Assembly (NCBI RefSeq): GCF_019649015.1
Contig: NZ_BLPI01000001.1
Span: 1,587,001-1,651,000 of the forward strand
Reading direction: 5' to 3'
DNA length: 64,000 nucleotides
Source of the DNA: Agarivorans litoreus
GTDB taxonomy: Bacteria; Pseudomonadota; Gammaproteobacteria; Enterobacterales; Celerinatantimonadaceae
Shown here: positions 20,880 to 42,225 of the stretch, in pieces
Position numbering within the stretch: the stretch's first letter is position 1
How the letters are laid out: every line of letters starts with the position of its first letter
Made by a program: the position numbers and the translations under genes
The notes under the pieces: generated by a model
Databases searched by the model: none
What the model was told of the DNA's origin: nothing
Seen by the model: the letters and a program-made list of their open reading frames with translations, nothing else

Positions 20880-20933
20880 TTACGAGCTTTAAGAAACTTC
20901 ATGAGTTTCTATGAATAGCAGGAGCGGTGATTA
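20880..20933 (+). repeat. Left attachment repeat (attL/attR-like) of the uronate island
   Basis: The 54-bp segment containing GCTTTAAGAAACTTCATGAG matches 42172-42225 in the same orientation with four mismatches by eye. The right copy overlaps the groL stop codon. It marks the left junction of a 21,292-bp element. Confidence 0.85.
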
Positions 20934-21008
20934 AGGGTCACTGCAAATGCTAAACATCCGTCCCAATATTGACTAAGCTAAAAATCATATATTACTTCAT
21001 GAGAGCGC

Positions 21009-23024
21009 TTAGGCTCTGCACTCTTTACTAACTACTATCTCACCTTGTTCCATATCTGCCTTGATGCTTAATGTATGTTTTGGATATTCAAGCGTCAGCT
21101 CAAGAGCTTGCTCGATCCAAACAAACTGCTGAACTTGAATATTAGCTTGTTCACTCAAATCGTGGATCACCGCCACTTTAAAATGCTCATCGACAGAGCG
21201 AACAATAGAGTAAGCTAAATCTGTGGTTGCAGGATTATCAGGCGCGTAGCCGCGTACCAAGCTGGCTGGACTATTAGTTATAATATGCTGATTAAACGCC
21301 GTTTGTTCTTGTATATCGTAACTAAGCTTGTAGCTTTCATCAATTTGTTGCTGATGGCATTGCACCATTCTAGCTAATGGTCCCTGCATCGGGTTATCAC
21401 ATTTATGAGTGGCATCTAATTGTTTGTGTTTCCCTCGAACATGCCAAACTAGATCTAGCTGCCTGCCCTTTGAGTTATCAACATCGTTAAACTCAATGAG
21501 CAAGTCTCCTAACCATAACAATTGACGACGATACTTAAGGCCGCGATACGCCTCTTCATCCCATTGCACAATAGTATGGCTATCTACAACAGGCAGCTCT
21601 CCGCGCCAATCTACCTCCACATCCAACCAAGTAAATTTGTCTGTTACCAAAAATTTATTTACTTTAGGCGTGGCTGGGGGCTGATTTTTTTGCTCAACGG
21701 CCAGGGTATTATGGGTAAGCGTATTTTTGTAATATTGGTAATGCAATTCAGCCCCATAGCCGGTGGTACCAAGGTCAGGCAAAATTTCTTTCCCTTTGCG
21801 GCTTATGATCAGGCCCAGTTGGTCATAATGATCATGTTCCCCGCCATAAGGAGCATGCTTAACCAATAACATGTTATCCCGAGTGTTATCATGCATGATA
21901 GTAATACCAGATTGCTCAGCGTGAATACTGTTGCAGGCTAAAGGCTTAGCCGGAGGCAGTTCCTCAACACCATAGAGTAAAGCCTCAATATTGTGACGCT
22001 CTTCTGCTTGATAAATAGTTTGTAATGCCGAAGCAAACAGCGGGTCTCGGTACTCTCGGTAAGCAAACTCAAATATATGACTATGGGTGAGCCTCTCTTG
22101 ACCAGCAATACAGTCATTCAATCGAGGGAAGTTGCCAGTATTGATGAGAAGCTTCAGTGGAAAGGCCATCATTAGCTGGAGCTTAGGTTGATCTTTTAGA
22201 GAATACTGAGTTTTACAGGCAATTTTTTCAAAATTAAGCAAGGCTTGTAGAGCATAGTAATGATAGTGAATAGAGCCTTCAAACCACAATCCATCGCCTT
22301 TAACGCCATTTTCTAATTGGTATTTAAGGCCATAAGGTGTATTGACCGCAAACTCTACTAGCTGCTCATTATCGATGATTAAACCGATTACACCAATGGT
22401 CGCTGAAATTTTCATTTCATGATTATGCAGTTGGTCACTACGGTGCTGCATTAAAAATTCAGCGCCCTCCAACAATAAGCGTTTCTCGACATAAAGCTGT
22501 TCTTCACGATCTAAATCTTCTTTTATAAAATCGTAACCGCGAGCGAAATCGATATTACAGTTTGCCTCGCACAAGGTTTGAGCATTGGCTTTACCAGGAC
22601 CATTATAAGGGATCCCTCCATGCTCTTGGTAATCAGGGTAAAACTCGGCGTAAGCTAATAAGATCTCTCTAACCTTATGCAAATAACGTTCGTTTTTAGT
22701 AATTTGCCAAAGTAGCCCTAAATCATTGCAAGCTTTCGAATTCAATCCATTCAGCCAGCGCCACCATGCGCCATCATAGGGCTCGCCAGTTAATACTTCA
22801 CCATCAACTGGGCAAACATGCTCTGTTGGCTTATTTCTATCCCAAGTTAAGCGCACACCGTGTTTTGGGCAAAAGTAGTATAGATTCCAAGTGGCCCTAG
22901 CGTCTGGTGGAACGAGCGTTTCAGACTCTAGTACTACAGAGTTATCAGCAATAATTTGATCAATGATCTCTTGATTTGCATGCTTGCGTATAACCGCCAT
23001 TTCTTTTTCAGTAAACTGCAACAT
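21009..23024 (-). CDS. Heparinase II/III-family polysaccharide lyase, PL15-like oligo-alginate lyase
   Basis: A 671-aa protein without a signal peptide, so probably cytoplasmic and acting on imported oligosaccharides. An N-terminal alpha-toroid region (~80-340) contains WWRWLNGLNSKACNDLGLLW, HNHEMKISATIG and GLWFEGSIHYHYYALQALLN. The heparinase II/III beta-sandwich starts near 385 with GGEHDHYDQLGLIISRKGKE, LPDLGTTGYG and THNTLAVEQKNQPP. His and Tyr residues in these blocks are the expected catalytic set. PL15 exo-lyases release unsaturated monouronates. The gene is 9 bp downstream of uxaC, in one operon. Which uronate polymer it prefers (alginate, glucuronan) cannot be read from the sequence. 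PL15 is my best match; PL17 and other heparinase-type families remain possible. Confidence 0.75.
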   Translation of the reverse strand: MLQFTEKEMAVIRKHANQEIIDQIIADNSVVLESETLVPPDARATWNLYYFCPKHGVRLTWDRNKPTEHVCPVDGEVLTGEPYDGAWWRWLNGLNSKACNDLGLLWQITKNERYLHKVREILLAYAEFYPDYQEHGGIPYNGPGKANAQTLCEANCNIDFARGYDFIKEDLDREEQLYVEKRLLLEGAEFLMQHRSDQLHNHEMKISATIGVIGLIIDNEQLVEFAVNTPYGLKYQLENGVKGDGLWFEGSIHYHYYALQALLNFEKIACKTQYSLKDQPKLQLMMAFPLKLLINTGNFPRLNDCIAGQERLTHSHIFEFAYREYRDPLFASALQTIYQAEERHNIEALLYGVEELPPAKPLACNSIHAEQSGITIMHDNTRDNMLLVKHAPYGGEHDHYDQLGLIISRKGKEILPDLGTTGYGAELHYQYYKNTLTHNTLAVEQKNQPPATPKVNKFLVTDKFTWLDVEVDWRGELPVVDSHTIVQWDEEAYRGLKYRRQLLWLGDLLIEFNDVDNSKGRQLDLVWHVRGKHKQLDATHKCDNPMQGPLARMVQCHQQQIDESYKLSYDIQEQTAFNQHIITNSPASLVRGYAPDNPATTDLAYSIVRSVDEHFKVAVIHDLSEQANIQVQQFVWIEQALELTLEYPKHTLSIKADMEQGEIVVSKECRA

Positions 23025-23033
23025 AATGAATAC

Positions 23034-24458
23034 CTATACATCACCTAACCGGTGTGGAAAATTAAAATACTGCCTGGCATTTCTATAACAAATATTTTCT
23101 ACGGTTTGCTTAATTAGCGCTTGGTCGTTAGGCATATATCCTTTATCAATCCACTCGCCTAAGAGATTGCATAAAATGCGACGAAAGTAGTCATGCCGCG
23201 ACATAGATAAAACACTTCTAGAGTCTGTCAACATGCCAACAAAGCGACCAAGAGCCCCCAAGTTAGCAAGATCCTTAAGCTGCTTTTCAATTCCAGATTG
23301 ATGATCATTAAACCACCAAGCTGCGCCCAATTGGATTTTTCCTGGCTGTGCATCACTGTCTTGAAATGCACCAATAATAGAGCCTAAGACCACGTTATCT
23401 TTTGGATTTAGGCTATACAAAATCGTTTGAGGTAAACAGCGATCCTCTTCCAACAAGTTGAGTAGCTTACATAAGCTTTCAGCGATCGCATTGTCACCTA
23501 TAACACTAAAACCAGTACCCTTTCCCAACGTATTGCAACGACGCTTATTTACATTACTCAACACTCCAATATGCAACTGCATAGACCACCCATGCTGATG
23601 ACAGGCCTTTCCTAAAGCGTGAAAAATAGCAGTTTTAAATTGTGTCTCTGCCAGCTTACTTAAGTTCTCTCCGCCAATCAGTTTGGCTATCGAATCATCT
23701 AAGTCTGCATAAGAATATTCAGCAAAATCAATAACCTTTAAGCCCAAATCAGATAAGCGACAGTTATTGGCGGCAAAATAATCAATACGGGAATAAATGG
23801 CCTTGAGGTAAGAACTAAAATCACTAATCACCACTCCGCTAACTTGGCTCAATGATTCAAGCATATTAAGAAACAATTTGGGTTCCTCAATGGCTAGTAA
23901 GTCATCAGCACGAAAAGTGGGTAGCACCTGAACAGGATAGTCTGAGGCTGCAAGTTGTTGGTGATAAACCAAGTTACTAAGAGGACTGTCAGTGGTACAT
24001 AGTAGTTCTACTTTACTGTCAATAAGTAAACGCCGTACCGAATGAGAGCTAGACTGCAATAAATCATTACACCGCCGCCATATTTCATCACAATTGTCGG
24101 GGTTGAGCAGCAGGTCAATATTAAAGTACTTTTTTAGCTCATAATGACACCAATGATATAAGGGATTACCGACCAAATAAGGAATGGTTTCACACCACTT
24201 TTCAAACTTACTGTAAGCATCCGCCCCTCCAGTAATATAGAACTCATCAACGCCATTACTGCGTAATGCCCGCCATAAATAGTGATCACGACTCAACCAA
24301 GCATCTGCAATATTTTGGTACTGGTAGTCGTTCCAGATATCCTGAGCCTCTAAATGGTTATGGAAATCAATAATAGGCATTGACTCAGCGTAGCTATGGT
24401 AAAGCGTTTCAGCTGTATTCCCTTGTAACAAGAAGTTTGGATGTATAAATACCGACAT
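23034..24458 (-). CDS. uxaC: Uronate isomerase (glucuronate/galacturonate isomerase)
   Basis: A 474-aa protein of usual UxaC length. Diagnostic blocks: PIIDFHNHLEAQDIW near residue 30 (metal-binding HxH), WLSRDHYLWRALRSNGV, NPLYHWCHYELKKYF, LQLHIGVLSN and LTDSRSVLSMSRHDYFRRIL at the C-terminus. The enzyme converts D-glucuronate to D-fructuronate, or galacturonate to tagaturonate. Downstream enzymes (UxaA/B, UxuA/B) are not in the window, so its products must be handled elsewhere. It is the first gene of a two-gene operon with the PL15-like lyase. The ATG at 24458 has a weak ribosome site. A 10-bp inverted repeat upstream may be its operator. Confidence 0.92.
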   Translation of the reverse strand: MSVFIHPNFLLQGNTAETLYHSYAESMPIIDFHNHLEAQDIWNDYQYQNIADAWLSRDHYLWRALRSNGVDEFYITGGADAYSKFEKWCETIPYLVGNPLYHWCHYELKKYFNIDLLLNPDNCDEIWRRCNDLLQSSSHSVRRLLIDSKVELLCTTDSPLSNLVYHQQLAASDYPVQVLPTFRADDLLAIEEPKLFLNMLESLSQVSGVVISDFSSYLKAIYSRIDYFAANNCRLSDLGLKVIDFAEYSYADLDDSIAKLIGGENLSKLAETQFKTAIFHALGKACHQHGWSMQLHIGVLSNVNKRRCNTLGKGTGFSVIGDNAIAESLCKLLNLLEEDRCLPQTILYSLNPKDNVVLGSIIGAFQDSDAQPGKIQLGAAWWFNDHQSGIEKQLKDLANLGALGRFVGMLTDSRSVLSMSRHDYFRRILCNLLGEWIDKGYMPNDQALIKQTVENICYRNARQYFNFPHRLGDV

Positions 24459-24579: not shown

Positions 24580-26346
24580 TTATTTAGCTGTACTGAGATT
24601 TAATGCTGATTGTTCTCTAGCGCTTTTTAGTAATAAGCTACCCACCGTAACAATCACCAAGCCACAGAACACAAAGGCCATACGTCCCCAGAATGGATTT
24701 GGTATCAGTACCATCGCACTCACAAGCGCACCAAATACCAAGATTAATTTGCCCAACATCTCACGCTGTTGGCGATCCATTTCGTCTTGACCTGCACCCT
24801 CAATCACTGGGGTATCTACATCATTCCAGAAAGCCGCTAGCTCTTTGCTACGCTCTGCTTTTGGCGCTTTGTAGAATTTGGTAGTAAGACAGAAGAACCC
24901 ACCTGTAATTACCAAGTGACCCACAATACCTAAGAGTACTTTTAAGTCTTTCGCTTCACGTCCAGTAAATGGCGATTCTAGATTTAACCAGTTATTAATC
25001 ACTTCTGCCGTGAAGACAAAACTCACCAAGTAAGACACTATCATGCCCACAACCAAGGTGGCCCATGCCGCCCAATCTGGCGTTTTCTTGATAAACATAC
25101 CAAAGAATAACGGCACCAAAATTGGCATTTGTAATAAGGTACTCACGTACATCATTGCATCAAATAGGCTTAAGCCTCGTAGGGAGTTGATGAACAGTGC
25201 CACCATAATAATCAGTACACCAAATACCAGCGTCACTAGTTGGCTCACTCGCATTAACTTCTTATCATCTGCAGTTTTGTTGATGATAGGCGCATAGAAG
25301 TTACGTACAAATACGCCTGAGTTACGGTTTAAGCCTGAATCCATAGATGACATAGTGGCTGCAAAAACAGCAGACATTAGCAGCCCAACCATGCCTACTG
25401 GCATCGCTTTTTCAACAAAAACCAAGTACACCGCATCGGCCGCTTTTTTACCTAACTCTGCGGCATGCGCTGTCGCTGCATCAGGATAAATAACTGCGGT
25501 TACCCAAGGAGGTAGGAACCAAATCGCTGGACCCACTAGCATTAACACAAAGGCTAGTAAAGCGGCTTTACGCGCATTCACAGAGTCTTTAGCAGTTAAG
25601 AATCGATATGAGTCTTGCATGTTATTGATGTTTTGCAATTGCTTAACGAACATGAAGATAAACCAAGAGATAAACAGTAATGGGTAGTTCATCCCTGAGC
25701 CCATAATACTCTCTGCGGGGAATTGCTCAATTAAGTTCGATGGACCACCAATCTTCACTAATGCAGCCACCGCACACACAACCGTTACCGCCATGATAAC
25801 GACCATTTGTACAAAATCTGAAGCTACTACACCCCATGCTCCACCAATCACCGAAATAAACAGAACAATTAAGCCTGTGGCAACAATGGTGGTTTCAATA
25901 TCAATTTTAAATACTGCACTAACAAACAGCGCTAAACCATTTAACCAAATACCGGTGTAAACAATGCTTGTTGGCATGGTTGCCCAGGTAAAGACTTGTT
26001 CATTGGTTGTGCCAAAACGACGGCGTACCCCTTCGATAGGAGTCACCACCCGCATTTGGCGGAAGCGGTAAGAAAAGTACAACCAAGAAAGCAAAAAACC
26101 AAACGCATTGGCCATGAACACAACCATAATAGGGAAGCCATCCGTGAACGCTTTACCCGCTGCTCCTGTAAATGTCCAAGCACTAAACTGCGTCATAAAT
26201 GCTGTGGAACCTACCATCCACCAAAGCATTTTGCCGCCCCCACGGAAGTAGTCACTAGTAGAGCTACCAGCAAATCGTTTGAAGATGACCCCTATCGCTA
26301 TCATGAAGATAAAATAGACGCCCACTACGAGCATATCGATATTCAT
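24580..26346 (-). CDS. SLC5-family sodium:solute symporter, copy 1
   Basis: A 588-aa, roughly 13-14 TM protein. Start ATG 26346 follows AAGGAG at a good distance; a GTG at 26367 is less likely. SLC5 features include an N-terminal helix pair (DMLVVGVYFIFMIAIGVIF), SDYFRGGGKMLWWMVG, AFMTQFSAWTFTGAAGKAF and MSSMDSGLNRNSGVFVRNF. Relatives in alginate clusters (Toa transporters) import unsaturated uronate monomers such as DEH; that substrate is inferred from context. It is encoded with its own terminator and a KdgR-like operator at 26376-26397. Apart from the last ~11 residues it is identical to copy 2 at 28808, part of a 1.73-kb direct duplication flanking the beta-helix lyase gene. Confidence 0.9.
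   Translation of the reverse strand: MNIDMLVVGVYFIFMIAIGVIFKRFAGSSTSDYFRGGGKMLWWMVGSTAFMTQFSAWTFTGAAGKAFTDGFPIMVVFMANAFGFLLSWLYFSYRFRQMRVVTPIEGVRRRFGTTNEQVFTWATMPTSIVYTGIWLNGLALFVSAVFKIDIETTIVATGLIVLFISVIGGAWGVVASDFVQMVVIMAVTVVCAVAALVKIGGPSNLIEQFPAESIMGSGMNYPLLFISWFIFMFVKQLQNINNMQDSYRFLTAKDSVNARKAALLAFVLMLVGPAIWFLPPWVTAVIYPDAATAHAAELGKKAADAVYLVFVEKAMPVGMVGLLMSAVFAATMSSMDSGLNRNSGVFVRNFYAPIINKTADDKKLMRVSQLVTLVFGVLIIMVALFINSLRGLSLFDAMMYVSTLLQMPILVPLFFGMFIKKTPDWAAWATLVVGMIVSYLVSFVFTAEVINNWLNLESPFTGREAKDLKVLLGIVGHLVITGGFFCLTTKFYKAPKAERSKELAAFWNDVDTPVIEGAGQDEMDRQQREMLGKLILVFGALVSAMVLIPNPFWGRMAFVFCGLVIVTVGSLLLKSAREQSALNLSTAK
24616..26346 (-). repeat. 1731-bp direct duplication, unit 1
   Basis: Aligns with 28844-30574 at a constant offset of 4228 bp without indels. 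By eye I found about seven single-base differences, all silent where checked. The units cover almost the whole symporter gene; only the 3' ~36 bp of each gene differ. Confidence 0.9.
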
Positions 26347-26375
26347 TTGGAACTCCTTCTCACTCACAAATTATT

Positions 26376-26606: not shown

Positions 26607-28607
26607 CTAATAAGCTCTAAATTTTAAATAATTACAACCATTTGAACTATTAAAGCTAAGTAGGCTTCCAATAAGAGATTTAGTACTAACATAATTAGAG
26701 CTCACAACCAGTTCGGAAGTATCATCGAGTGCTCTTACCATGCCGCGAAAATCACAGCTAGAGTTAGTGTCACTATCCCACACTTGCACTGTTTTATCGC
26801 TTAAGGGACGATCTATTTGCAAACACAGACCATCGTGAATAATCAGTTCTTGCTTGCTACCCCAAGCATAACTAAGTACTTCACTACAATCAGCGTTTAC
26901 CGGAGGGTCAACCGGCTCTTCTGGCTCAGAAGGTTCGGTAACAGGTCGTTGCCAAGATCCCCCAGCGGTGTTGACACCAGAGTGAGGGATTTGAGCAAAT
27001 ACCCCTTCAGCAATCAGTTGGTTCCAAGTAGCAATAGGCGCGCCATCAACATTTAAATGTTCAAACTGACTACCATTCCATCCTAGAGCGTACTCAACGT
27101 TAGGAGTATCAAATAAGCCCCAAGTTTCTATCGGCTGACCAGCACTTTTTGCCTTTTTAAAAGTATTATTTAGCAACACGTTGTTAGGTCCAGTTGGCCC
27201 AGACCATTTACTAGCGTGATCACCTGATCCAACCCAAATAGGCTGCCATGTCGAGCCCGCTTCTGGAGCCCCATTTGACCAACTACGATGCTCAAAAGGT
27301 ACTTCAACAGTATTATTACGGATCAGGTTATTGCGCTCCCAGCCACCATGTAAGTTCAAATCTTCATTTAGATAGTTATTCTCTACAATATTACCCGTAG
27401 CCGACCACTGTAGCGCTAAATGTCGAATGTTTTTGATAGTATTGTCTTTGATCCAACTATCGTAAAGCTTTGAGCCTCTAAAATATCCATTCCCCCCGGC
27501 ACCTTTATTCCAGGATCCATTAATATTGTTATCTGATATCGTTACATCTTTTGCAAACTCAGTCACAATTGGATGCGATCCAATCATTTCAATATTTAGG
27601 TTTTTCACCCAACCATTTTGTACCCACTTCAAAATGACCCCATGGATAGCATCTTGAGAACAAACATTCTCGTAACGATACAACACGCCATTCGGGTTTT
27701 GCGGTGAGTAAGCTGCAGTGTTATAGCCCTCACAGGCACTGCCACTGGTATCCATGGTTAAATAGAAATCTTGCAATCCAAAATTTTGGATGGCAGTAAC
27801 GGGCATTGCTCTGCTGTTATAGCCAGACTCATTATTTAGCGGAAGGTTAAATTCAAGCGGACGATCAAGTGTCACTTCATCTGAGCTAATATCCACTTCC
27901 AGCACTTTAAATATCTGAGTACGCATATGACCGGTCATAATATGCGTAGCACTTCGTCGCGACGTGGGAACTTGCCCTTTATCGAGAAATGCTTTATCAC
28001 TCGCTGCACCAATATAGATGAAATCACCAACAGAAAACTCTTTAGCCTTACCGGATTCAAGCACCACACTGGTATCGCCAATACTTGCGGTTTCGGCAAA
28101 CTCAATAGAGTGCTTCCAATGAAAGTTTATACTTCCCTCATAGGCCTGTTCTTTGGCATGCATCTGGCGAGTTTCAACTCGAAACACAGCAAAACCAGGC
28201 CAATATTTTTTATCAAAATCTGGCGCATTATCACTTCCAACCCCATATGGCGACCAAGATTTAACAACGATTTTTGTGCCACTAACTGGGTCGCTACCAG
28301 CACCACGAATAACCAAGCCGGATTTATCAACATGAATTTCGTCGCTAAGGTTAATTTCCCCTGCGGGAAGCTGAATCAAGGTAAGAGCATCGGGGTTATT
28401 AGGTACCATATTATCGATAATGGCTTGCAGAGCATAGGAGTCGTCTACTCCATCGTTACTATTAACACCATGTTGGGTGGCATCAATCACTAAATCAAAT
28501 TGACTAGGTAGAGGCCCTCCTCCATTGTAGCCAGGTGCCGCTGATACCCACGAAGCCCCCACTAAGTAACTAAGCACCACTGTACCTGCCACTTTTTTCA
28601 ATTTCAT
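26607..28607 (-). CDS. Secreted parallel beta-helix polysaccharide lyase-like protein with C-terminal accessory domain
   Basis: A 666-aa protein with a clear signal peptide (MKLKKVAGTVVLSYLVGASW..SAA). The mature N-terminus (~residue 38 on) is pectate-lyase-superfamily-like: FDLVIDATQHGVNSNDGVDD, IQLPAGEINLSDEIHVDKSG, LVIRGAGSD. Helical repeats with N-x-I and NNYLN-type turns run to ~500. A Pro/Glu linker (EPSEPEEPVDPP) leads to a Cys-containing C-terminal domain (~570-666), probably for carbohydrate or cell-surface binding. The start follows AAGGAGA. Context inside a uronate locus suggests a lyase on a uronic-acid polymer, but I cannot assign a PL family or catalytic residues. It sits between the two symporter copies. 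Confidence 0.75.
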   Translation of the reverse strand: MKLKKVAGTVVLSYLVGASWVSAAPGYNGGGPLPSQFDLVIDATQHGVNSNDGVDDSYALQAIIDNMVPNNPDALTLIQLPAGEINLSDEIHVDKSGLVIRGAGSDPVSGTKIVVKSWSPYGVGSDNAPDFDKKYWPGFAVFRVETRQMHAKEQAYEGSINFHWKHSIEFAETASIGDTSVVLESGKAKEFSVGDFIYIGAASDKAFLDKGQVPTSRRSATHIMTGHMRTQIFKVLEVDISSDEVTLDRPLEFNLPLNNESGYNSRAMPVTAIQNFGLQDFYLTMDTSGSACEGYNTAAYSPQNPNGVLYRYENVCSQDAIHGVILKWVQNGWVKNLNIEMIGSHPIVTEFAKDVTISDNNINGSWNKGAGGNGYFRGSKLYDSWIKDNTIKNIRHLALQWSATGNIVENNYLNEDLNLHGGWERNNLIRNNTVEVPFEHRSWSNGAPEAGSTWQPIWVGSGDHASKWSGPTGPNNVLLNNTFKKAKSAGQPIETWGLFDTPNVEYALGWNGSQFEHLNVDGAPIATWNQLIAEGVFAQIPHSGVNTAGGSWQRPVTEPSEPEEPVDPPVNADCSEVLSYAWGSKQELIIHDGLCLQIDRPLSDKTVQVWDSDTNSSCDFRGMVRALDDTSELVVSSNYVSTKSLIGSLLSFNSSNGCNYLKFRAY

Positions 28608-33246: not shown

Positions 33247-33288
33247 ATAGTTCTCCTGCACCAAACGATGCTCAAAAAGTTAAAATAA

Positions 33289-33609: not shown

Positions 33610-33620
33610 ATTTATACCTA

Positions 33621-34136
33621 TTAATTCGCTACGATCTTGGTGTGCTGTTCTCTGTATAAGCGGCAAATTGTCACGGTATTCATCATGATCACTGACATTT
33701 CTAACAATGTACCGCCGATTGAACCAACAAGGATGTTGTTGATTAACCAGCAACAGGCTCCCAGTAAAAAACCTATTCGTAACTTGATTCCTTTGAGTAC
33801 AAACACCGAGTAAGTGCCAATAACCGTGCCAACTATTGGCCATAGCTGCCAAACATTATCAGCCAAGGCCAGCCCACTAACGACACTGATGGCAATGAAT
33901 ATAAAGGCGAACTTTTTCGATGAAAAATGTATAGCTGTTGCAGTTCTAACGGCCGAGAGCAATGCCCCTAAAGCCGAAACGATTGACCCCAACAACAAGT
34001 AATGCACAACATGATTGAGATTAAAGATGAGCATAACTACCTTCAGCCTCTTATCGTCTTTTTGATAAAAAGTAGAAAGACCTAGCACAAAACTAAGCAG
34101 GCCAAATGCTTGCGCAGTTATCTCTAAACTCATCAT
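33621..34136 (-). CDS. YgjV-family inner membrane protein
   Basis: About 171 aa with five or six predicted membrane helices (EITAQAFGLLSFVLGLSTF, LNHVVHYLLLGSIVSALGAL, FIFIAISVVSGLAL, GFLLGACCWLINNILVGSI). The family is annotated YgjV/inner membrane protein and has no proven function. Its place inside a uronate operon, 19 bp after kduD and 11 bp before kdgF, suggests a transport or membrane-adaptation role. Start ATG 34136 is likely (AGAGG upstream); GTG 34142 or ATG 34133 are alternatives. Confidence 0.8.
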   Translation of the reverse strand: MMSLEITAQAFGLLSFVLGLSTFYQKDDKRLKVVMLIFNLNHVVHYLLLGSIVSALGALLSAVRTATAIHFSSKKFAFIFIAISVVSGLALADNVWQLWPIVGTVIGTYSVFVLKGIKLRIGFLLGACCWLINNILVGSIGGTLLEMSVIMMNTVTICRLYREQHTKIVAN

Positions 34137-34155
34137 ATGCACTCTACCTCTATGA

Positions 34156-34917
34156 CTAGCGGGCTAACCAGCCGCCATCAACAGCGATGGTATAGCCATT
34201 AATATAATCAGCAGCTGCTGAAGCAAGAAAGACACATGGGCCAGCAACATCTTGAGGAGTACCCCAACGGTCGGCTGGAATGCGGTCAAGAATCGCATTG
34301 CTCCGCTCAGCGTCTTCACGTAAGGCCTGAGTATTATTGGTGGCCATGTAACCAGGAGCAATGGCATTAACATTAATGTCATACTGAGCCCACTCATTAG
34401 CCATCGCCCTAGTAATTCCCATCACTGCACTTTTAGATGCAGTATAAGAAGGTACGCGAACACCACCTTGGTAAGACAGCATTGATGCAATATTAATTAT
34501 TTTTCCACCAGTACCCTGAGAAATAAACTGCTTAGCAACGGCTTGAGACATAAAGAAAACAGTTTTTGAATTAATATTCATCACGTCCTCCCAGTCTTGC
34601 TCTGAGAACTCAATCGCATCATTTCGGCGAATAATACCGGCGTTGTTAACTAAAATATCTATTTTGCCAAATTCAGTAATTGCCTTATCAATCACTAATG
34701 GAATATCTGTTTGTTGTAGCAGGTTTGCTCGCATATCAAAAAATGTATGACCTGCTGCACGCATCATTTCAATAGTTTCTGTAGGCTCAACATAATTAAC
34801 GCCAACAACTTTACAACCCGCTTCAGCTAAACCAAGAGCCATACCTTGACCCAAGCCCGTATCACAACCGGTTACTATTGCTACTTTTCCTTGCAGATTA
34901 AATGACTCTAACACCAT
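34156..34917 (-). CDS. kduD: 2-dehydro-3-deoxy-D-gluconate 5-dehydrogenase (SDR)
   Basis: A 253-aa short-chain dehydrogenase of exact KduD length. It shows the cofactor motif TGCDTGLGQGMALGLAEAG, NNAG with IIRRNDAIEF, Ser in NIASMLSYQGG, the catalytic YTASKSA and the C-terminal DYINGYTIAVDGGWLAR typical of KduD. It reduces 2,5-diketo-3-deoxygluconate to KDG. ATG 34917 follows GAGGA. It is the first gene of a leftward operon kduD–ygjV-like–kdgF–dhuI–kdgK–eda, divergent from kdgR across a 49-bp palindrome. Confidence 0.94.
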   Translation of the reverse strand: MVLESFNLQGKVAIVTGCDTGLGQGMALGLAEAGCKVVGVNYVEPTETIEMMRAAGHTFFDMRANLLQQTDIPLVIDKAITEFGKIDILVNNAGIIRRNDAIEFSEQDWEDVMNINSKTVFFMSQAVAKQFISQGTGGKIINIASMLSYQGGVRVPSYTASKSAVMGITRAMANEWAQYDINVNAIAPGYMATNNTQALREDAERSNAILDRIPADRWGTPQDVAGPCVFLASAAADYINGYTIAVDGGWLAR

Positions 34918-35048: not shown

Positions 35049-35162
35049 TGTTGTATTTGTGATTAGCCTCTTACTGTAATTCTATTTTTTTAAAAGACCT
35101 TTTCAAAATTTTTGAATTTTGCTATTCTGACTTGATAAATGAAATTTTTAGGGGAGATAGAC

Positions 35163-35948
35163 TTGGACAAATCCACTCAACCTGAGGCCGTTTCATCGGT
35201 TCTTAAGGTGTTTAATATCCTTGAGATGTTAGGTGAACAAAAAGAAATAGGTGTATCAGAATTGTCACACCGCTTGATGATGTCCAAAGCAACCACTTAT
35301 CGTTTTCTTCAAACGATGAAGATGCTTGGGTATGTCTCACAACAAGGCGAGGCAGATAAATACTCATTAACACTGAAATTATTTGAACTAGGTTCAAAGT
35401 CTCTCGAGTGGGTTGACTTAGTAAACATCGCTGAAAAAGAAATGCGTATTATATCCGACGAAACGAATGAAACGATTCACTTAGGGGCTCTTGACCAAGG
35501 CACTATCATATATGTTCACAAAATCGACTCTAGTTACGCACTAAGAATGCACTCTCGCGTTGGTCGCAGAAACCCACTCCACACCACAGCAATCGGTAAA
35601 GTTTTATTATCGAATCGCGAAGAAGACTTCATTCGTCATACATTTTCAGATGTGGAGTTTGTAAAAAGTACCCCTAACACCCTAGAAAATGTTGAGCAAC
35701 TAATCGAAGAGTTGGCCAAAGTAAAACAACAACACTTTGGGGAAGATAACGAAGAACAAGAACCTGGCCTGCGCTGTATCGCGGCACCAGTATATGACCG
35801 CTTTGGCAATATTATCGCAGGCGTATCAATTTCTTTCCCCACTATTCGCTTTGATGAAGAAAAAAAATCTCACTACATTAAGCTGTTGCACTCAGCCGGA
35901 AGGAAAATCTCGGAGCAACTAGGGTTTAAGGACTACCCCATTCAATAA
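35163..35948 (+). CDS. kdgR: IclR-family repressor of uronate catabolism
   Basis: About 261 aa, matching the 263-residue E. coli KdgR. The N-terminal winged helix reads VSSVLKVFNILEMLGEQKEI, LSHRLMMSKATTYRFLQTMK. The IclR effector domain has HLGALDQGTIIYVHKIDS, RVGRRNPLHTTAIGKVLLSN, GEDNEEQEPGLRCIAAPVYD and AGVSISFPTIRF. KdgR binds KDG and releases its operators. TTG 35163 is preferred because GGGGAG precedes it by six bases and the resulting length fits; ATG 35139 has no ribosome site. It is divergent from kduD and followed by a strong terminator. Confidence 0.93.
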   Translation: MDKSTQPEAVSSVLKVFNILEMLGEQKEIGVSELSHRLMMSKATTYRFLQTMKMLGYVSQQGEADKYSLTLKLFELGSKSLEWVDLVNIAEKEMRIISDETNETIHLGALDQGTIIYVHKIDSSYALRMHSRVGRRNPLHTTAIGKVLLSNREEDFIRHTFSDVEFVKSTPNTLENVEQLIEELAKVKQQHFGEDNEEQEPGLRCIAAPVYDRFGNIIAGVSISFPTIRFDEEKKSHYIKLLHSAGRKISEQLGFKDYPIQ

Positions 35949-36027: not shown

Positions 36028-37896
36028 ATGATTAACACACTATCTCCTAACATAAGCGCATTCATCAGCCATATTGACCCTTTCGACAAGTTGCCCAAAC
36101 ATACTGTTGACAGTTTAGTCAATGAGGTACAGGTAAGGTACTTAGCAAAGGGGGAAAGCATTGCATTTAGTGTTTTGTGCAAACAGCGCTTTCTTTACAT
36201 AATACGTACAGGGGCAATTGAGCAACGCGCTCCCTCTGGCATACTAAAAGCGAAACTAGGTGAAGAAGACCAATTTGGCTTCACATTCTTAGAGCCACTG
36301 GCTAAAGCTGAAGATGGTTATCAAGCTAACGCCATTGAGGACTCGCTGCTGTACTTAATTCCCCATGAGCAGCTAAAACGTGTGTGTGAAGAGTATCCTG
36401 AATGCAAAGACTATTTTGCTGTACAAAGTAAAAATCGACTACTTAGTGCGATTAACTCCACGATAAAAAAAGAAGATACCGCACTGTTTTATCGCAATGT
36501 TAGTGAAGTCGCCAGCGAAAATATCACCATTGTCAGCGCAGACACCCCCATAAAAGACGTAGCTCGTCTTATGTGTGGTAAACAAGCAAGTTCATGCGCA
36601 GTAATTATGCGGGAACATGAAATTGTAGGCATGATGACAGACCGAGACATGACTAAAAATGTCATCGCGGCAGATATAGATACGAATGAAGCGATTTCTT
36701 TAGTTATGAATAAACACCCCACCTTGATTCAAAGTGATGAAAAAATCATTCATGCTATTTCCCTAATGTTGCAATACAATATTCGCTGCTTACCGGTGCT
36801 TACCGGTAAACAAGTCACTGGCTTACTGACTACCTCACACCTTGTTCATAACCATAAAACTCAATCACTTTTCCTGATCGAAAAAATTAAATATACAAGG
36901 TCTATAGAAGGGCTTGCTAGCTTGAAAGGGGAAAAACAATCCATCTTTCAAGCATTGGTTGAAAGCGGGGTGAGTGCTGAAGTTCAAGGGCATGTGATGT
37001 CTATGATTATGGATGCCTTTACTCGCCGAATAATTCAACTAACTGAAGATGTACTGGGAGCAGCCCCTTGCCCTTATGCCTGGTTGGTAGCCGGATCGCA
37101 TGCCCGTAATGAAGTTCACTTATTATCCGATCAAGACAGTGCCATTGTTATTGCTGATGAAGCAAGCGAAGAAGACCGCATTTACTTCCTGCACCTCGCA
37201 ATGAAAGTGTGTAACGGCCTACATGCCTGTGGTTATCCACTGTGTAGCGGAAAGTTTATGGCGGCGACACCTAGTTGGTGCCAAAAAATCTCATGCTGGA
37301 AAGACTACTACCGAAAGTGGGTGAAAAGCCCAGAATACAACCAACTATTGAATATCAGTGTATTTCTCGAAATTCGCTCAATTTATGGCGATCCAACACT
37401 TGTAGAGTCAATACACCAAGCTATGCACCAACACATACAAAACCACCCAGGTTTTCTAGTCGCGTTAGTCAAGGACGCGATTACCATTAATCCTCCATTA
37501 GGCATCTTTAATAGTTTGGTATTAGAAAGAGGCGGTGAACATTCAAACACCCTTAACATAAAAAAATATGCTTTAAACCTGATTATTGATTTAGCCAGAA
37601 TCTTCAGTTTAAAAGTGCAAGGTTCACTAACTGGAACCGAAGAACGCTTTCGTTATGCCGCCGAAAAAGGAAGCTTATCGCAGGATAGTTGCGATAACAT
37701 CATTCAAGCCTACCGCTTTATTTCACAAGTAAGATTTCGCCACCAGCTGAATGCACTAAAAAATGGAGGACTGCCTGACAATCACATATCTCCGTCTGAG
37801 TTTTCTAGCTTCGAACGTAAACACCTTAAAGAAGCTTTCAAAATTATCAGTCAATTGCAAGATGTCGCCAAACTAAAATTTCTAGCTGGTATCTAA
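36028..37896 (+). CDS. cNMP-binding / CBS-pair / DUF294 nucleotidyltransferase-like protein (island copy)
   Basis: A 622-aa protein. A cyclic-nucleotide-binding-like domain occupies ~1-140, two CBS motifs ~165-290 (ADTPIKDVARLM...VGMMTDRDMTKNV; KHPTLIQSDEKIIHAISLML), a DUF294 nucleotidyltransferase-like domain ~320-460 with AGSHARNEVHLLSDQDSAIV, and a DUF294_C domain to the end. The GSxAR and DQD motifs of the putative catalytic site are kept. Biochemical function is not established for the family; members accompany symporter or acetate genes. It is paralogous to the gene at 58519 and likewise followed by an exonuclease gene (6 bp). A KdgR-like box overlaps its leader. Confidence 0.88.
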   Translation: MINTLSPNISAFISHIDPFDKLPKHTVDSLVNEVQVRYLAKGESIAFSVLCKQRFLYIIRTGAIEQRAPSGILKAKLGEEDQFGFTFLEPLAKAEDGYQANAIEDSLLYLIPHEQLKRVCEEYPECKDYFAVQSKNRLLSAINSTIKKEDTALFYRNVSEVASENITIVSADTPIKDVARLMCGKQASSCAVIMREHEIVGMMTDRDMTKNVIAADIDTNEAISLVMNKHPTLIQSDEKIIHAISLMLQYNIRCLPVLTGKQVTGLLTTSHLVHNHKTQSLFLIEKIKYTRSIEGLASLKGEKQSIFQALVESGVSAEVQGHVMSMIMDAFTRRIIQLTEDVLGAAPCPYAWLVAGSHARNEVHLLSDQDSAIVIADEASEEDRIYFLHLAMKVCNGLHACGYPLCSGKFMAATPSWCQKISCWKDYYRKWVKSPEYNQLLNISVFLEIRSIYGDPTLVESIHQAMHQHIQNHPGFLVALVKDAITINPPLGIFNSLVLERGGEHSNTLNIKKYALNLIIDLARIFSLKVQGSLTGTEERFRYAAEKGSLSQDSCDNIIQAYRFISQVRFRHQLNALKNGGLPDNHISPSEFSSFERKHLKEAFKIISQLQDVAKLKFLAGI

Positions 37897-37902
37897 GAGA
37901 CA

Positions 37903-38607
37903 ATGAAGTGGTTTAAGCATTCATCTCAACCGCCAATGGAGCAACTAAGACGATCACTCACCCCCTCCGCGGTTTGGAGTAAGAGTGTTCAACAATATAT
38001 GGCAACGCCTTTGGCTGATTTATCAGTGCCAATATCTCAGTTAGAGTTTGTGGCACTGGACATCGAGACTACCGGTTTAGATTTTAGTAAGGACAAAATG
38101 CTGTCGATCGGAACAGTTAACTTCAACACAGAGTCGATTAACCTAGCAACGGCCAGTGAAACTTTCATTTGTAATCAACAGGTCGTGCAAGCCAAAACAG
38201 CAGAAGTAAACGGAATAACCTCCAATCAACTCGACAAAGGACAACCGCTAGACTTGGCAATAGACAAGCTACTTAATACCATTCGCGGTAAAGTCGTTCT
38301 TGCCCACAACGCTGTTATTGAAAAAGGCTTTCTAAAAAAATACTTTTTGGAACGCTATCAGCTATCTGAGCTTCCTTGTCATTATTTCGACACTTTAGAA
38401 ATAGAGAAAAAATATAGTTTTGCGGGGCGCACTAGGCTTCACTCTAGTTATTACCTCGGCGACTTGAGGAATCATTATAAGCTACCAGAATACTCAGCTC
38501 ACTCGGCGGCAATCGATGCCCTATCATGTGCTGAGCTATTTATAGTTCAAATAAAAAAATTAAAATTAGAACAATACGGCGCTTCTATTAAACTACTCAA
38601 AAGCTAA
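37903..38607 (+). CDS. DEDDh-type 3'-5' exonuclease (DnaQ/PolC epsilon-like), island copy
   Basis: A 234-aa protein. Exo I: VALDIETTGLDFSKDKMLSI with the D-x-E pair. Exo II region: VVLAHNAVIEKGFLKKY, where the usual Asp appears as Glu. Exo III: YSAHSAAIDALSCAELF with the His and Asp of the DEDDh set. No polymerase domain is attached. It starts 6 bp after the DUF294 gene and is surely co-transcribed. The paralogous pair at 58.5-61 kb has the same order. Its partner role with the DUF294 protein is unknown; nucleotide turnover is one possibility. Confidence 0.88.
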   Translation: MKWFKHSSQPPMEQLRRSLTPSAVWSKSVQQYMATPLADLSVPISQLEFVALDIETTGLDFSKDKMLSIGTVNFNTESINLATASETFICNQQVVQAKTAEVNGITSNQLDKGQPLDLAIDKLLNTIRGKVVLAHNAVIEKGFLKKYFLERYQLSELPCHYFDTLEIEKKYSFAGRTRLHSSYYLGDLRNHYKLPEYSAHSAAIDALSCAELFIVQIKKLKLEQYGASIKLLKS

Positions 38608-38795: not shown

Positions 38796-38818
38796 CTTTT
38801 TTGAAACACCTTTTCATT
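38796..38818 (+). promoter_or_regulatory. KdgR-like operator before the lyase–porin operon
   Basis: CTTTTTTGAAACACCTTTTC plus AT, a recognisable KdgR-type half-symmetric box, 34 bp upstream of the lyase start. Confidence 0.6.
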
Positions 38819-38851
38819 ATAATCAGTACAACAGTTCATAAGGAGAAAGGC

Positions 38852-40036
38852 ATGAAAAAAACATTAATGTTAATCACTATGCTTAGTGCACTAAATGTTT
38901 CTCAAGGATTTGCAGAGAACACGAAATTCATCACTTACGACAGCGCAGCTCTCGAGTACAACAAAGACAACCTCAACAATAAAGCTGAGGCTTTGTCCAC
39001 ATTAATAGCTAAAGCAGATAAAGCGCTTAAAGCCGACATAGACCCTGTTACCAACAAAACTCTTCTTCCCGCTAGTGGAGACCCACACGATTATTTTAGC
39101 TTTGGACCATACTGGTGGCCGAATCCGGATACAAAAGATGGGCTGCCCTACATTCGCCGTGATGGCGAGTACAACATGGCTACAAAAACAGCGGCCACCG
39201 ACAAACAGCGATTTATTCGCTTCACAAAAGATGTAACTAACCTTGGTTTGGCATATTACTTCACTGGCAAAAACGACTATGCCAGCAAAGCGATTGATCA
39301 GCTAAAAGCATGGTTTATTGATCAAGAAACTCGCATGAATCCAAACTTGAATCATGCTCAGGCGATTCCTGGAATTGTAGACGGGCGCGGCATTGGGATC
39401 ATTGATAGCCGACTGCTAATTGGCGTGGTAGATAGTGTAGAGATACTAAAAGCACAGTTAACAAGCGAACAATACACTGCAATTAATAACTGGTTTAAAG
39501 AATTCAACACTTGGTTAATCACCAGCAATAACGGCTTTGAAGAGGATAACTGGCATAACAATCACGGTACCTGGTACGACGCTCAAGTTGTCGCTTTTGC
39601 GATATTTACCGGTGACTTAGATACTGCTAAGAAGCGACTTAGAGTCACACAAATGCGAAGAATTGGAACTCAATTCAACATGCACGGCCAACAACACGCA
39701 GAATTAGAGCGCACCAAGCCTTGGCACTATTCAAACTTCAATTTGCAAGCCTATAGCTTGTTGGGCCATTACGGCGATGTAGTTGGTATAGATGTTTGGA
39801 ATTATGAAGTAGACAAACACTCACTTAAAAAAGGTTATCAGTACGTAGCTAAATACACCATAGCCCCTGAGGAGTGGGACTATAAAGAGCTAAAAGGATT
39901 TCAAGCCTCCAAAGCCTACACCAATATGCTTTATGCAAATAAAGCCTATAACGACCCTATTTTTTCAGACGCTATTAGCGAACTGAAAAAAGACAAAGCC
40001 AATCAGAAAAACATCCAAAATTTATTATTTAAATAA
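38852..40036 (+). CDS. Alginate-lyase-superfamily secreted lyase, PL38-like
   Basis: 394 aa with signal peptide MKKTLMLITMLSALNVSQGF. The alpha-toroid alginate-lyase domain shows GDPHDYFSFGPYWWPNPDTK, LPYIRRDGEYN, GLAYYFTGKNDYASKAIDQL, NLNHAQAIPGIVDGRG, NNHGTWYDAQVVAFAIFTGD (likely catalytic His/Tyr region) and KPWHYSNFNLQAY. The pattern matches PF05426 proteins of the PL38 type, which act on alginate or glucuronan. ATG 38852 follows AGGAGAAAGG; a TTG at 38801 lies within the operator and is rejected. It is followed after 34 bp by kdgM, and the two form an export/uptake operon. Substrate choice is inferred. Confidence 0.82.
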   Translation: MKKTLMLITMLSALNVSQGFAENTKFITYDSAALEYNKDNLNNKAEALSTLIAKADKALKADIDPVTNKTLLPASGDPHDYFSFGPYWWPNPDTKDGLPYIRRDGEYNMATKTAATDKQRFIRFTKDVTNLGLAYYFTGKNDYASKAIDQLKAWFIDQETRMNPNLNHAQAIPGIVDGRGIGIIDSRLLIGVVDSVEILKAQLTSEQYTAINNWFKEFNTWLITSNNGFEEDNWHNNHGTWYDAQVVAFAIFTGDLDTAKKRLRVTQMRRIGTQFNMHGQQHAELERTKPWHYSNFNLQAYSLLGHYGDVVGIDVWNYEVDKHSLKKGYQYVAKYTIAPEEWDYKELKGFQASKAYTNMLYANKAYNDPIFSDAISELKKDKANQKNIQNLLFK

Positions 40037-40070: not shown

Positions 40071-40745
40071 ATGAAAATCAAACAAATAGCACTAATCACT
40101 ACCCTATTATTATCGGCAGGTTCCGTGTCTGCAGCTTCATTAGACTTTCGTCAGGAATATAAACACGATACTGAAAAATACGCTAGTCGTATTAAGTTAG
40201 GTGCTGGTGTAGGTAATTATTATTTTGGGGTAGAGGCCATGCAACATGGCCATATTTTTTCTGACTGGGAGTCAAAGGGGAATGAATTTGACTTTGGCTA
40301 TAAATACAAAATAGATGAGAAATGGATGCTAATCCCAGGCATGCCAATTACCTTTTTCCCAGGTCACGTAACGTTTAAACCTCAGCTTCGTGTTCAATAC
40401 AAATTTGATTCTGGTTTAACAGCAAAATTACGTTACCGCCATGAGTTTCGCCGCTTTACGGATGAGAAGGACAAAAGCGGAGAACAAAAAAGTAAAATTA
40501 CCGCAAACCTAAACTATAACTACAACTACTTCCAATTTGGCTTGGAAGGTAACTTTGAAAAGGGCCTAGATGACCAAGTACTTTTTGACAACGATGATAC
40601 GAATTGGGATCTACTTTTCCAAATTGGCTATAAAGGCAAAGATTGGAATCTTCGCCCATACGCAGAATTTGGTAATGTTTCAGTATCATCAAAAAGCAGC
40701 GACCGTCAACTAAGAAGCCGTGTAGGCATCACCTACAGCTTCTAA
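40071..40745 (+). CDS. kdgM: KdgM-family oligogalacturonate-type outer-membrane porin
   Basis: 224 aa with signal peptide MKIKQIALITTLLLSAGSVS. The mature protein is composed of alternating amphipathic strands ending in Phe (SRVGITYSF), with LDFRQEYKHD at its start, the typical KdgM opening. These small barrels carry uronate oligomers across the outer membrane. It is preceded by AAGGAAAG and follows the PL38-like gene in one operon. It ends before a 12-bp-arm hairpin shared with the convergent integrase gene. Confidence 0.9.
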   Translation: MKIKQIALITTLLLSAGSVSAASLDFRQEYKHDTEKYASRIKLGAGVGNYYFGVEAMQHGHIFSDWESKGNEFDFGYKYKIDEKWMLIPGMPITFFPGHVTFKPQLRVQYKFDSGLTAKLRYRHEFRRFTDEKDKSGEQKSKITANLNYNYNYFQFGLEGNFEKGLDDQVLFDNDDTNWDLLFQIGYKGKDWNLRPYAEFGNVSVSSKSSDRQLRSRVGITYSF

Positions 40746-40805: not shown

Positions 40806-41996
40806 TTATTTGAGTGAATCTAAGTAATCCGCCCATTTCTGCATCATTTTTTTTCGCTTCTTCAAATACAATGCACGGTTATAAGCTCTGGAAGTAGCCG
40901 AGCCGATTAGATGAGCAAGTTGCACTTCAACAACGTCATGTTTCCACCCCTGCTCGTGCAGTAATGTTGATGCTGTACTTCTAAAACCATGCGCAGAGAT
41001 AACATCGGCTGAGTAACCTAAAGACCGAAGCCTATTTGTCATTACGTTTTTACTCATTGGCTTATTGCCATCCCTCTCACTAGGAAACACAAATTCAGAG
41101 TATCCAGTGACAAGCCTTATACTCTTAAGTTGCTCAACCACTTGCGTGGCTAATGGCACCAAATGCTCTCTCCCTCGCTTCATATTTTCAGCCGGGATCC
41201 GGATAATTTTGTTTTCAAAATCTATATACGACCACTTTAAATGTCGAATTTCCTTTGGCCTTAAAAATAACCTTGGAATCAGACGTAATGCTTCTATCGT
41301 GCAATAACCGCTAGAACGATCGCTGTCGATATCCCTGATGAGAGCACCTAGTTCATTCTCGTTTGTTATAGCGGCTTGATGTTTGACTTTGGGTAAAGGT
41401 GCGATGATATCTCTTAGTGATAACCCCTGAGCAGGATTACTTCGAATCAAACGATGAGCTAAAGCGTGAGCGAATACTCGATTAACTACAGATAAAATGG
41501 TCGGAGCTTTCTTTGGAGCTCCTGAGGCTTCAATCGAAAGCATCAATTCGGTGATGTGCCCAGCATCAACTTCTTCTATGGCTAATTGGCATATCTCTTT
41601 TGCATCTCGGGTTAGCCAACGCTTTATTCTATTAGCATGCTCTTCGGACCATGCTTCTCTTTGTTTTTCCCACCATTGTAAAGCAACCCACTCAAACGTT
41701 TTTTCGGGTGAGCTATGCTTCTTTTTCGCTTTACGTCTTTCGTCCATGGGGTTAATACCCTGAGCGAGCATTAGGTGAGCATCTTTAGCTAAGCTCCTTG
41801 CTTCAACTAAACTGACATTGGGGTACTTTCCCAAAGCCATTTCTTGGTGTTTGTTAGCGAATTTGAAACGCAAGCGCCAAAGCTTAGAACCACTAGACTT
41901 AACCAACAAAAACAATCCATTAGCATCATATTTTTTAGAGCTAGACTTACCTTCTGGGCAAGATATTGACTTAATTTCTAAAGCAGTTAAGGCCAT
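40806..41996 (-). CDS. int: P4-type tyrosine integrase
   Basis: A 396-aa protein. The N-terminal DUF4102-like domain is visible (ALEIKSISCPEGKSSSKKYD, LFLLVKSSGSKLWRLRFKF). It is followed by a core-binding region and the catalytic domain: RLFLRPKEIRHLKW (Arg), SAHGFRSTASTLL (HxxR), LAHLIGSATSRAYNRALYL (His and Tyr). Such integrases insert islands at tRNA or other conserved gene ends. It lies at the groL-proximal end of the island, reading inward, 181 bp from the right attachment repeat. All catalytic residues are present, so it may be active. Repeated GGGGTA motifs upstream are probable arm-binding or autoregulatory sites. Confidence 0.95.
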   Translation of the reverse strand: MALTALEIKSISCPEGKSSSKKYDANGLFLLVKSSGSKLWRLRFKFANKHQEMALGKYPNVSLVEARSLAKDAHLMLAQGINPMDERRKAKKKHSSPEKTFEWVALQWWEKQREAWSEEHANRIKRWLTRDAKEICQLAIEEVDAGHITELMLSIEASGAPKKAPTILSVVNRVFAHALAHRLIRSNPAQGLSLRDIIAPLPKVKHQAAITNENELGALIRDIDSDRSSGYCTIEALRLIPRLFLRPKEIRHLKWSYIDFENKIIRIPAENMKRGREHLVPLATQVVEQLKSIRLVTGYSEFVFPSERDGNKPMSKNVMTNRLRSLGYSADVISAHGFRSTASTLLHEQGWKHDVVEVQLAHLIGSATSRAYNRALYLKKRKKMMQKWADYLDSLK

Positions 41997-41998
41997 AA

Positions 41999-42095
41999 GG
42001 TGGGGTACTTTTGGGGTATAAAGTGGGGTATTTACAAAAATATAGCAAATAAATTGAAGTCCTACTATAGACGATACCCCACTTTGTACCCCACC
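41999..42095. promoter_or_regulatory. Iterated GTGGGGTA motifs upstream of int
   Basis: Three copies in direct orientation (GGTGGGGTAC 41999, TTGGGGTATA 42011, AGTGGGGTAT 42022) and two inverted copies (ATACCCCACT 42074, GTACCCCACC 42086). They lie between the integrase start and the attachment repeat, as expected for integrase arm sites or operator repeats. Confidence 0.7.
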
Positions 42096-42148
42096 AATTT
42101 TGACGCTTTATGAAATAGTATGATACTAACTGAATATCTAAAGGAATA

Positions 42149-42183
42149 AAAAAAGCCCGTAAAGCAATACCTTACGGGCTTTA
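42149..42183 (-). terminator. Intrinsic terminator of groSL
   Basis: On the minus strand AAGCCCGTAAGGTATTGCTT, then ACGGGCTTTTTTTATTCC: a strong GC stem with a T-run, 40 bp past the groL stop. The stem lies on the island side of the junction; its upstream arm overlaps the attachment repeat. Confidence 0.9.
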
Positions 42184-42222
42184 AGAAACTTTATGAGTTT
42201 CTATGAATAGCTGGAGCGATGA

Positions 42223-42225
<3 letters not shown>
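42172..42225 (+). repeat. Right attachment repeat, overlapping the groL stop codon
   Basis: Matches 20880-20933 with four mismatches in 54 bp, same orientation. Its right end contains the groL stop (42223-42225), so the integration site appears to be the 3' end of groL. Confidence 0.85.

Follow-up and report, generated by a model that had tools for sequence, protein, structure and literature searches.

A probable 53-kb site-specific island at the end of groL in Agarivorans litoreus and a groL-associated clade of P4-type integrases

The window analysed here is a 64,000-nucleotide stretch (G000:C1:1587001-1651000) of the 4.34-Mb genome of Agarivorans litoreus (G000), in which a uronate-polysaccharide locus and a P4-type tyrosine integrase lie behind the chaperone gene groL. 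The region is best explained by an integrated site-specific island of about 53 kb at the groL end, a reading to which we give a probability of roughly 0.85. The 21-kb block that an earlier note had described as the whole island would be its right-hand part. More broadly, it is likely that the integrase belongs to an unnamed P4-type clade that has specialised on the five final groL codons plus the stop and for which this gene end serves as a socket across Gammaproteobacteria. The arriving element would restore the gene end and supply a terminator, and in Agarivorans the site would act as an exchange point for nutritional loci (uronate, mannan, glycerol/dihydroxyacetone) and defence genes; staphylococcal satellites use the same end, as a separate group of deltaproteobacterial integrases probably does. 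The target is notable and its comparative support is strong, while the kind of island itself is already known. The main features are listed in window coordinates, with the strand where one was assigned.

42223..43872, minus strand: groL, the integration target (gene annotation)
42223..42240, minus strand: attachment core ATGGGCGGCATGATGTAA, the last five codons and stop of groL (core searches, junction comparisons)
42149..42222, minus strand: island-side groL tail with terminator hairpin (tail comparison)
42001..42093: proximal arm-type motifs, TGGGGTA at 42001, 42012 and 42024 and TACCCCA at 42075 and 42087
40806..41996, minus strand: P4-type tyrosine integrase of the groL-associated clade, with Arm-DNA-bind_3, Phage_int_M and Phage_integrase domains and an intact frame
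20876..20933, minus strand: internal 58-bp copy of the groL 3' tail, read as a scar and not as an attachment (att) site (no core, arms or terminator hairpin)
1..20875: left-hand stretch of the 53-kb island; outside the window the island extends a further 10.8 kb, as far as the distal core at G000:C1:1576200

An exact distal partner of the groL end was found at G000:C1:1576200-1576217, 10.8 kb to the left of the window, and the element would therefore measure about 53 kb. The 15-mer GGCGGCATGATGTAA occurs twice in this genome, at 1576200 and 1629223, 53,023 bp apart. With a core at both ends and one copy within groL, the end of the target gene is restored. Six congeners (G001-G006) were compared with G000, giving seven Agarivorans genomes altogether. 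The 15-mer was also found twice in G003 (30.6 kb apart) and G005 (16.8 kb apart), and once, at groL, in G001, G002 and G006; in G004 the copy at groL has one mismatch and the single exact copy lies 28.2 kb from it. Five of the seven genomes hold 17-108 kb at the groL site, with four kinds of cargo, and two are empty. Neither a distal core nor a close relative of the integrase was found in G002 and G006, and these were therefore taken as the empty sites. The efp-side chromosomal block, which begins 21 bp outside the distal core of A. litoreus, stands 2.8 kb (G002) and 1.4 kb (G006) behind groL in these island-free genomes; it lies close outside the distal core in G001 and G003 and 6 kb off in G004. 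The earlier note had named groL as the integration site and proposed comparing its downstream region in relatives without the locus, and both the paired cores and the empty sites agree with it.

Proximal and distal junctions were compared in ten genomes. Before the core, the two junctions agreed at only 6-14 of 52 positions in all ten. Behind it, six of the ten pairs (G000, G004, Pseudoalteromonas rubra, Colwellia, G062 and G746) matched no better than shuffles, and the G479 pair was marginal, with 21 of 500 shuffles as good. Common to both junctions in every genome were 15-18 bp at the groL end. This part common to all is therefore the core. The second exact core of Colwellia lies 48.9 kb away on the same contig.

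Arm motifs were scored at 11 distal ends, counting only those of the form GGGGT[AG]; the second core of G062, which has one mismatch, was part of the ten-genome junction comparison and stands outside these 11. A pair of motifs was found 73 and 61 bp, or 75 and 63 bp, before the core at seven ends from five genera, and of the others two have one motif and two have none. In a random control, two motifs fell at 60-100 bp at 9 of 20000 window positions. The distal end in G746, 7.6 kb away on the same contig, carries the pair at 73/61. A CGGTTCA pair stands at exactly 73/61 in G479, one of the two ends with no scored motif, whose integrase is 52% identical, although this motif was picked after viewing the sequence. 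The second core of G620 begins at contig base 2, leaving no room for arm sites. Judged by motif and position, putative arm-type integrase sites are present at both island ends.

The two cores also coincide with the integrase in a class-wide sample of 369 genomes, in which carriers were defined by a match to the clade profile at E <= 1e-100. Four genomes matched, G000 and three others, and the three further integrases all sit directly behind groL. Two copies of the 18-mer core pattern were present in 4/4 carriers and in 1/365 other genomes (Fisher test, 6.6e-9; without G000, with 3/3 carriers, 4.9e-7). The test counts G654 as a two-core genome without integrase. In this sole exception each of the two cores is at base 4 of its own contig, with the same sequence following; the double core is an assembly effect, a contig-edge duplicate. 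It might be argued that paired cores are a chance repeat of the conserved groL 3' end, because the 18-mer pattern is common (189/369 genomes; a reversed control pattern scored 0). However, no genome of the class sample beyond the four carriers and G654 has two copies, and the two copies coincide with the integrase. Chance repetition was rejected by shuffles of the window and by the class-wide core counts, and we find it hardly credible. G004 and G007, of the same family, have a second core without a close integrase, and these second cores are read as remnants. In G007, which belongs to another genus, three exact groL cores stand in tandem (G007:C17:307999, 312562 and 315223) with no integrase match, and these are likely scars of earlier islands.

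The integrase beside groL is of the P4 type, as the earlier note had stated, and has an Arm-DNA-bind_3 domain. Residues R246, K273, H336, R339, H362 and Y372, which we take to be the likely catalytic residues of a tyrosine integrase, were invariant in seven integrases. The search for groL-adjacent homologues suggested in the earlier note was also productive. Confirmed relatives number at least 297; in the best 80 of them, 10 integrase genes follow groL at a distance of no more than about 0.5 kb, and others may have been missed, given this selection and the many loci on short contigs. Six close groL-adjacent relatives, with 62-69% identity, come from Agarivorans, Endobugula, Pseudoalteromonas rubra, Colwellia, a Pseudomonadales metagenome-assembled genome (MAG) and a Proteobacteria MAG. 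Four deltaproteobacterial integrases (L080, L084, L085 and L096) with 38-41% identity are directly behind groL as well; in the tree they intermingle with relatives not seen at groL. Among the 12 best loci of a 60-relative search, those at groL were the four from Agarivorans, that of the window among them, and no others. The tree had 81 rows, with L079 and L152 left out for reading frames below 300 aa; L079 does stand behind groL. The eight close groL integrases formed one clade with a Shimodaira-Hasegawa-like approximate likelihood ratio test (SH-aLRT) support of 100. The groL label required five changes on the tree, three of them forced by well-supported branches, compared with 11.4 in shuffles; hence groL targeting probably arose or was lost repeatedly.

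The earlier note had placed the island between direct repeats of about 54 bp with four mismatches. The repeat is genuine, with a length of 58 nt, 5 mismatches and 91% identity between 20876-20933 and 42168-42225, and a 46-nt pattern taken from it (<= 3 mismatches) was found at only two places in the window, where shuffles expect 0.00. The groL stop codon (42223-42225), inside the right copy as had been noted, is where that copy begins, and the rest of it follows the groL 3' tail. The left copy has TAA as its very first letters, followed by 55 nt of the same tail, and it contains no GGCGGCATGATG core, no arm motifs and no second terminator arm. Its predicted hairpin energy was -11.0, versus -24.5 to -29.9 in seven proximal tails (G000, G001, G003, G004, G005, P. 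rubra and G746). Lacking the recombination core as well as the arm sites of the integrase, the left copy is probably not an attachment site; the repeat was rejected in this role, and the internal copy is most likely a scar. A 21-kb island ending at the repeats would bracket the integrase and the cargo, and the block is nearly whole in G001 too. Besides the make-up of the left copy, it is opposed by the homology between G000 and G001, which continues past the repeat, through the AlpA gene, to 20148, and by the exact core partner 53 kb off. We consider such an island quite improbable. The repeat itself was thus correctly seen and its bounding role was not, which cautions against taking a conspicuous long repeat beside an integrase for the end of an element, since it may be a scar.

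The common groL tail of Agarivorans, a hairpin with terminator, occurs in the empty G002 and G006 too. The tail of the P. rubra island resembles it, and G008, from another genus, has a similar hairpin without a close integrase, for which reason we do not claim an island origin for the Agarivorans tail.

Paired cores, arm motifs, empty sites, different cargo and integrases clustered at groL are all observed, and from them the following mechanism is proposed. The P4-type integrase would recombine the 18-bp core at the end of groL, served by the two distal arm-type sites about 73 and 61 bp before it, and AlpA would probably act as the excisionase. The arriving element would re-supply the groL end and carry its own terminator, so that groL would stay intact. 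An island with the integrase and the uronate locus may have integrated at groL beside an older island, in tandem, and a later deletion may have taken out the core at the junction along with the older integrase, leaving the trimmed 58-bp tail. That the island excises and integrates in the cell, that AlpA has this role and that the history ran this way are inferred from the comparisons, as is the substrate discussed below.

Several observations weigh against this interpretation. The case for mobility is wholly comparative, with excision, a circular form and transfer proposed from sequence, and the tandem-and-deletion history rests on one arrangement common to G000 and G001. The distal core of G001, 107.6 kb away, carries 3 mismatches, and the match between G000 and G001 stops at 20148, a position without an att site. 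Both tails behind the core are alike in G003, G005 and Endobugula, and these three therefore do not single out the core alone. Single arm motifs were found at the distal ends of G003 and G005, none of the scored motifs at that of G007, and none by eye at the second core of G062. The second cores of P. rubra, Endobugula, G062, G479 and G620 are on other contigs. The empty G002 and G006 differ from each other near groL, with 2.8 and 1.4 kb of unshared DNA. In G005 the efp-side block is on another contig, C14, and what follows the distal core departs from the usual flank; as read from open reading frames (ORFs), G005:C10 beyond 121160 resembles a pilQ/aroK/aroB region. No relaxase was found when ORFs of the G000 island, most of them at least 150 aa long, were searched with Pfam.

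The cargo of G000 and G001 differs at 188 of 19,796 aligned positions (99.05% identity). Identity is 99.15% in the integrase region, compared with 94.9% for groL, 95.0% for the right flank and 86-87% for the native flank. The uronate locus is nearly self-contained and appears to have been exchanged between species, in keeping with the earlier note's idea of a whole nutritional trait on one unit. Since the match ends away from an att site, homologous exchange is a serious rival for this event: the cassette might have reached one Agarivorans species by recombination over groL and the backbone, with the integrase responsible for older insertions only. The end of the shared block at 20148, where there is no att site, fits this account, as do the groL-side identity, which varies from 89 to 99% per kb, and the different content left of 20148 in the two genomes. 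It leaves unexplained the integrase, the arm motifs and the paired end cores, together with the other cargo found between the same cores in other genomes, and we regard it as a real but tentative possibility. The 53-kb region could also be a fossil composite of several groL islands that is no longer mobile. The coreless scar inside it, its several recombinases, its defence genes, a distal tail unlike the Agarivorans groL tails compared and the lack of a relaxase among the scanned ORFs would all suit a fossil. Yet the integrase frame is intact and conserved, and no damage is seen in either terminal core or in the distal arm pair; loss of mobility is therefore judged unlikely, if far from negligible.

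Islands of the P4-type/AlpA kind have an integrase beside the att site, an AlpA excisionase, arm and core sites and variable cargo, and restore the end of their target. P4-type integrases habitually target tRNA or tmRNA genes. The A. litoreus island shares the Arm-DNA-bind_3 integrase beside att, AlpA, the arm and core sites and the restored target end, and differs in its target, the groL 3' end. A tRNA gene as target was rejected, as ARAGORN found no tRNA in the window. The groEL 3' end is described as the site of staphylococcal phage-inducible chromosomal islands and resistance islands (PMC8125051, PMC4651549, PMC11217367). SeCISE48, ScRIfusB and the S. aureus ktrB-groL islands are like the present island in using this end as bacterial attachment site; they are Gram-positive phage satellites with other cargo (ScRIfusB has 16.9 kb). 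Islands in other protein-coding genes, such as those at dusA (PMC4482086) and SGI1 (PMC2297512), likewise combine a conserved gene with a site-specific recombinase, but have other targets, the dusA site being at the 5' end. Among the literature matches listed, all of them open-licence papers and thus weak evidence of absence, there was no report of gammaproteobacterial groL islands. The earlier note's view that groL is unusual for P4-type integrases fits this limited search, with the qualification that the groEL 3' end is known from the staphylococcal islands. The proposed island would offer a concrete route for swapping polysaccharide diet among marine species, with a chaperone gene end as a landing site that is restored on entry. 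With the core and arm signature, such islands can also be sought in other genomes by a simple rule, among them some that have lost the integrase.

The uronate-polysaccharide locus comprises the following genes. Signal peptides were judged by eye, and localisation was derived from the apparent signal peptides.

21009..23024, minus strand: PL17-like lyase, Alginate_lyase and Hepar_II_III_C domains, no signal peptide by eye (distant PL17 matches in PDB)
23034..24458, minus strand: UxaC, glucuronate isomerase (profile matches)
24580..26367, minus strand: SSF symporter copy 1 (Pfam)
26607..28607, minus strand: candidate lyase, probably secreted (signal peptide by eye), beta-helix through weak Pfam matches of relatives
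28808..30574, minus strand: SSF symporter copy 2 (Pfam)
30898..31521, minus strand: 2-keto-3-deoxy-6-phosphogluconate (KDPG) aldolase, Eda (Pfam)
31533..32462, minus strand: PfkB kinase (Pfam), by context a 2-keto-3-deoxygluconate (KDG) kinase
32605..33264, minus strand: RpiB-family isomerase, DhuI-like (PDB 3ono 'Ribose/Galactose Isomerase', 1.5e-109; 4u8e gbs1892, 2e-71, presumably DhuI)
33289..33627, minus strand: KdgF-type cupin, start assumed inside ORF 33289-33852 (5fpx 'pectin degradation protein', 9e-27; 5fq0 'KDGF', 4e-20)
33621..34142, minus strand: YgjV-family inner membrane protein (Pfam)
34156..34917, minus strand: KduD (NF006528, 486 bits versus a 430 cut-off)
35139..35948, plus strand: KdgR, IclR-family regulator (NF011671, 438 bits versus a 275 cut-off)
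36028..38607, plus strand: CBS/DUF294 protein and RNase T-type exonuclease (beside KdgR in G114 too)
38801..40036, plus strand: PL38-type lyase, probable signal peptide by eye (Alginate_lyase 1e-81; 3nfv 7e-66 and 8bdq 1e-54, which we take to be of family PL38)
40071..40745, plus strand: KdgM-family outer-membrane porin (Pfam)

The locus reads as a route from KdgM and the SSF symporters to KdgF, the DhuI-type isomerase, KduD, the PfkB kinase and KDPG aldolase, under the putative control of KdgR. The beta-helix protein and the PL38 lyase would act outside the cell or in the periplasm, and the PL17-like lyase would be cytosolic. The lyases, porin, symporters and repressor had been correctly recognised in the earlier note, whereas its 'full KDG pathway' does not extend beyond the unsaturated-uronate branch: the UxuA family (PF03786) had no match in the G000 genome at E <= 0.001, though the island carries UxaC. 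The presence of UxaC suggests that saturated glucuronate may be released as well.

An alginate utilisation locus is defined by alginate-active lyases and a 4-deoxy-L-erythro-5-hexoseulose uronate (DEH) reductase as the entry step. Compared with such loci, the lyases here are PL38- and PL17-like, but entry looks like KdgF, a DhuI-like isomerase and KduD, with UxaC in addition. With modest confidence, we favour a polymer containing glucuronic acid, such as glucuronan, over alginate as the probable substrate. In PMC9029943, glucuronan lyase activity is ascribed to PL38 enzymes, and alginate degradation to one such enzyme of Agarivorans; the same source names Aly38A and Oal17A of Agarivorans sp. 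B2Z047 and the glucuronan lyases CUL-I and TpPL38A. These PL38/PL17 systems resemble the G000 locus in having PL38- and PL17-type lyases that would give unsaturated uronates, and the latter adds UxaC, the DhuI-type isomerase, KduD and its island location.

The beta-helix protein (26607-28607) had no Pfam match at E 0.001, and PDB searches with the protein and a five-row profile gave nothing up to E = 1. Its single-sequence structure model was unusable, with a mean predicted local distance difference test (pLDDT) score of 33.6. Near full-length relatives outside the genus were found in G009, G114 and G265 among 394 genomes searched, and its last ~110 residues recur on other proteins. The two symporter genes are 99.5% identical over 1739 nt and form direct repeats around the beta-helix gene, so recombination between them could drop it. 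In G114, from another family, 14 of the 16 cargo genes are found in a similar order, the CBS-DUF294 protein and exonuclease included and the aldolase and kinase absent, with neither groL nor the integrase of the groL island within 35 kb. G009 has six genes of the lyase/transport part. Hence the uronate locus exists outside groL islands too.

The left part of the island holds recombination and defence genes.

1-2370: part of hsdR
2516-3643: CARF protein
4698-10547: Hhe-type helicase
19480-20055: resolvase
20333..20536, plus strand: AlpA-type excisionase/regulator, a likely directionality factor (Pfam Phage_AlpA 2e-15; PHROG excisionase)

Since AlpA lies to the left of the 58-bp copy, the block of the earlier note omits the likely excisionase, and the uronate locus is flanked by the integrase on one side and an AlpA/resolvase backbone on the other, its left border being marked by the scar. 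The groL island of G003 has an AlpA relative (67%) together with a 550-bp stretch over the resolvase (91%). The restriction/defence half also falls outside that block. It comprises (L066:8683-18973 and window 1-10547) an hsdR-hsdM-hsdS type I restriction-modification system, McrBC, the CARF protein and the Hhe-type helicase. No primase or terminase domain turned up in the ORFs scanned with Pfam. Three adjacent genes at 14227-18554 (164, 439 and 832 aa) have no Pfam match, the last being weakly integrase-like (PHROG, 1e-4), and are possibly a further mobile element within the island.

Other groL islands of Agarivorans carry different cargo. The G004 island (L041/L042, C9:62920-91112), which has no close integrase, holds a mannan-type locus with GH26, LamB, ABC transporter parts and phosphomannomutase (10 ORFs scanned). 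Ten ORFs scanned across G003 and G005 revealed a glycerol/dihydroxyacetone set in the former. The G005 island (L037:10296-14652, L038:3021-5030) encodes a TrwC relaxase, a TrwB/TraD coupling protein and a TIR/SLOG protein, and its relaxase suggests that some groL islands may be mobilisable by conjugation.

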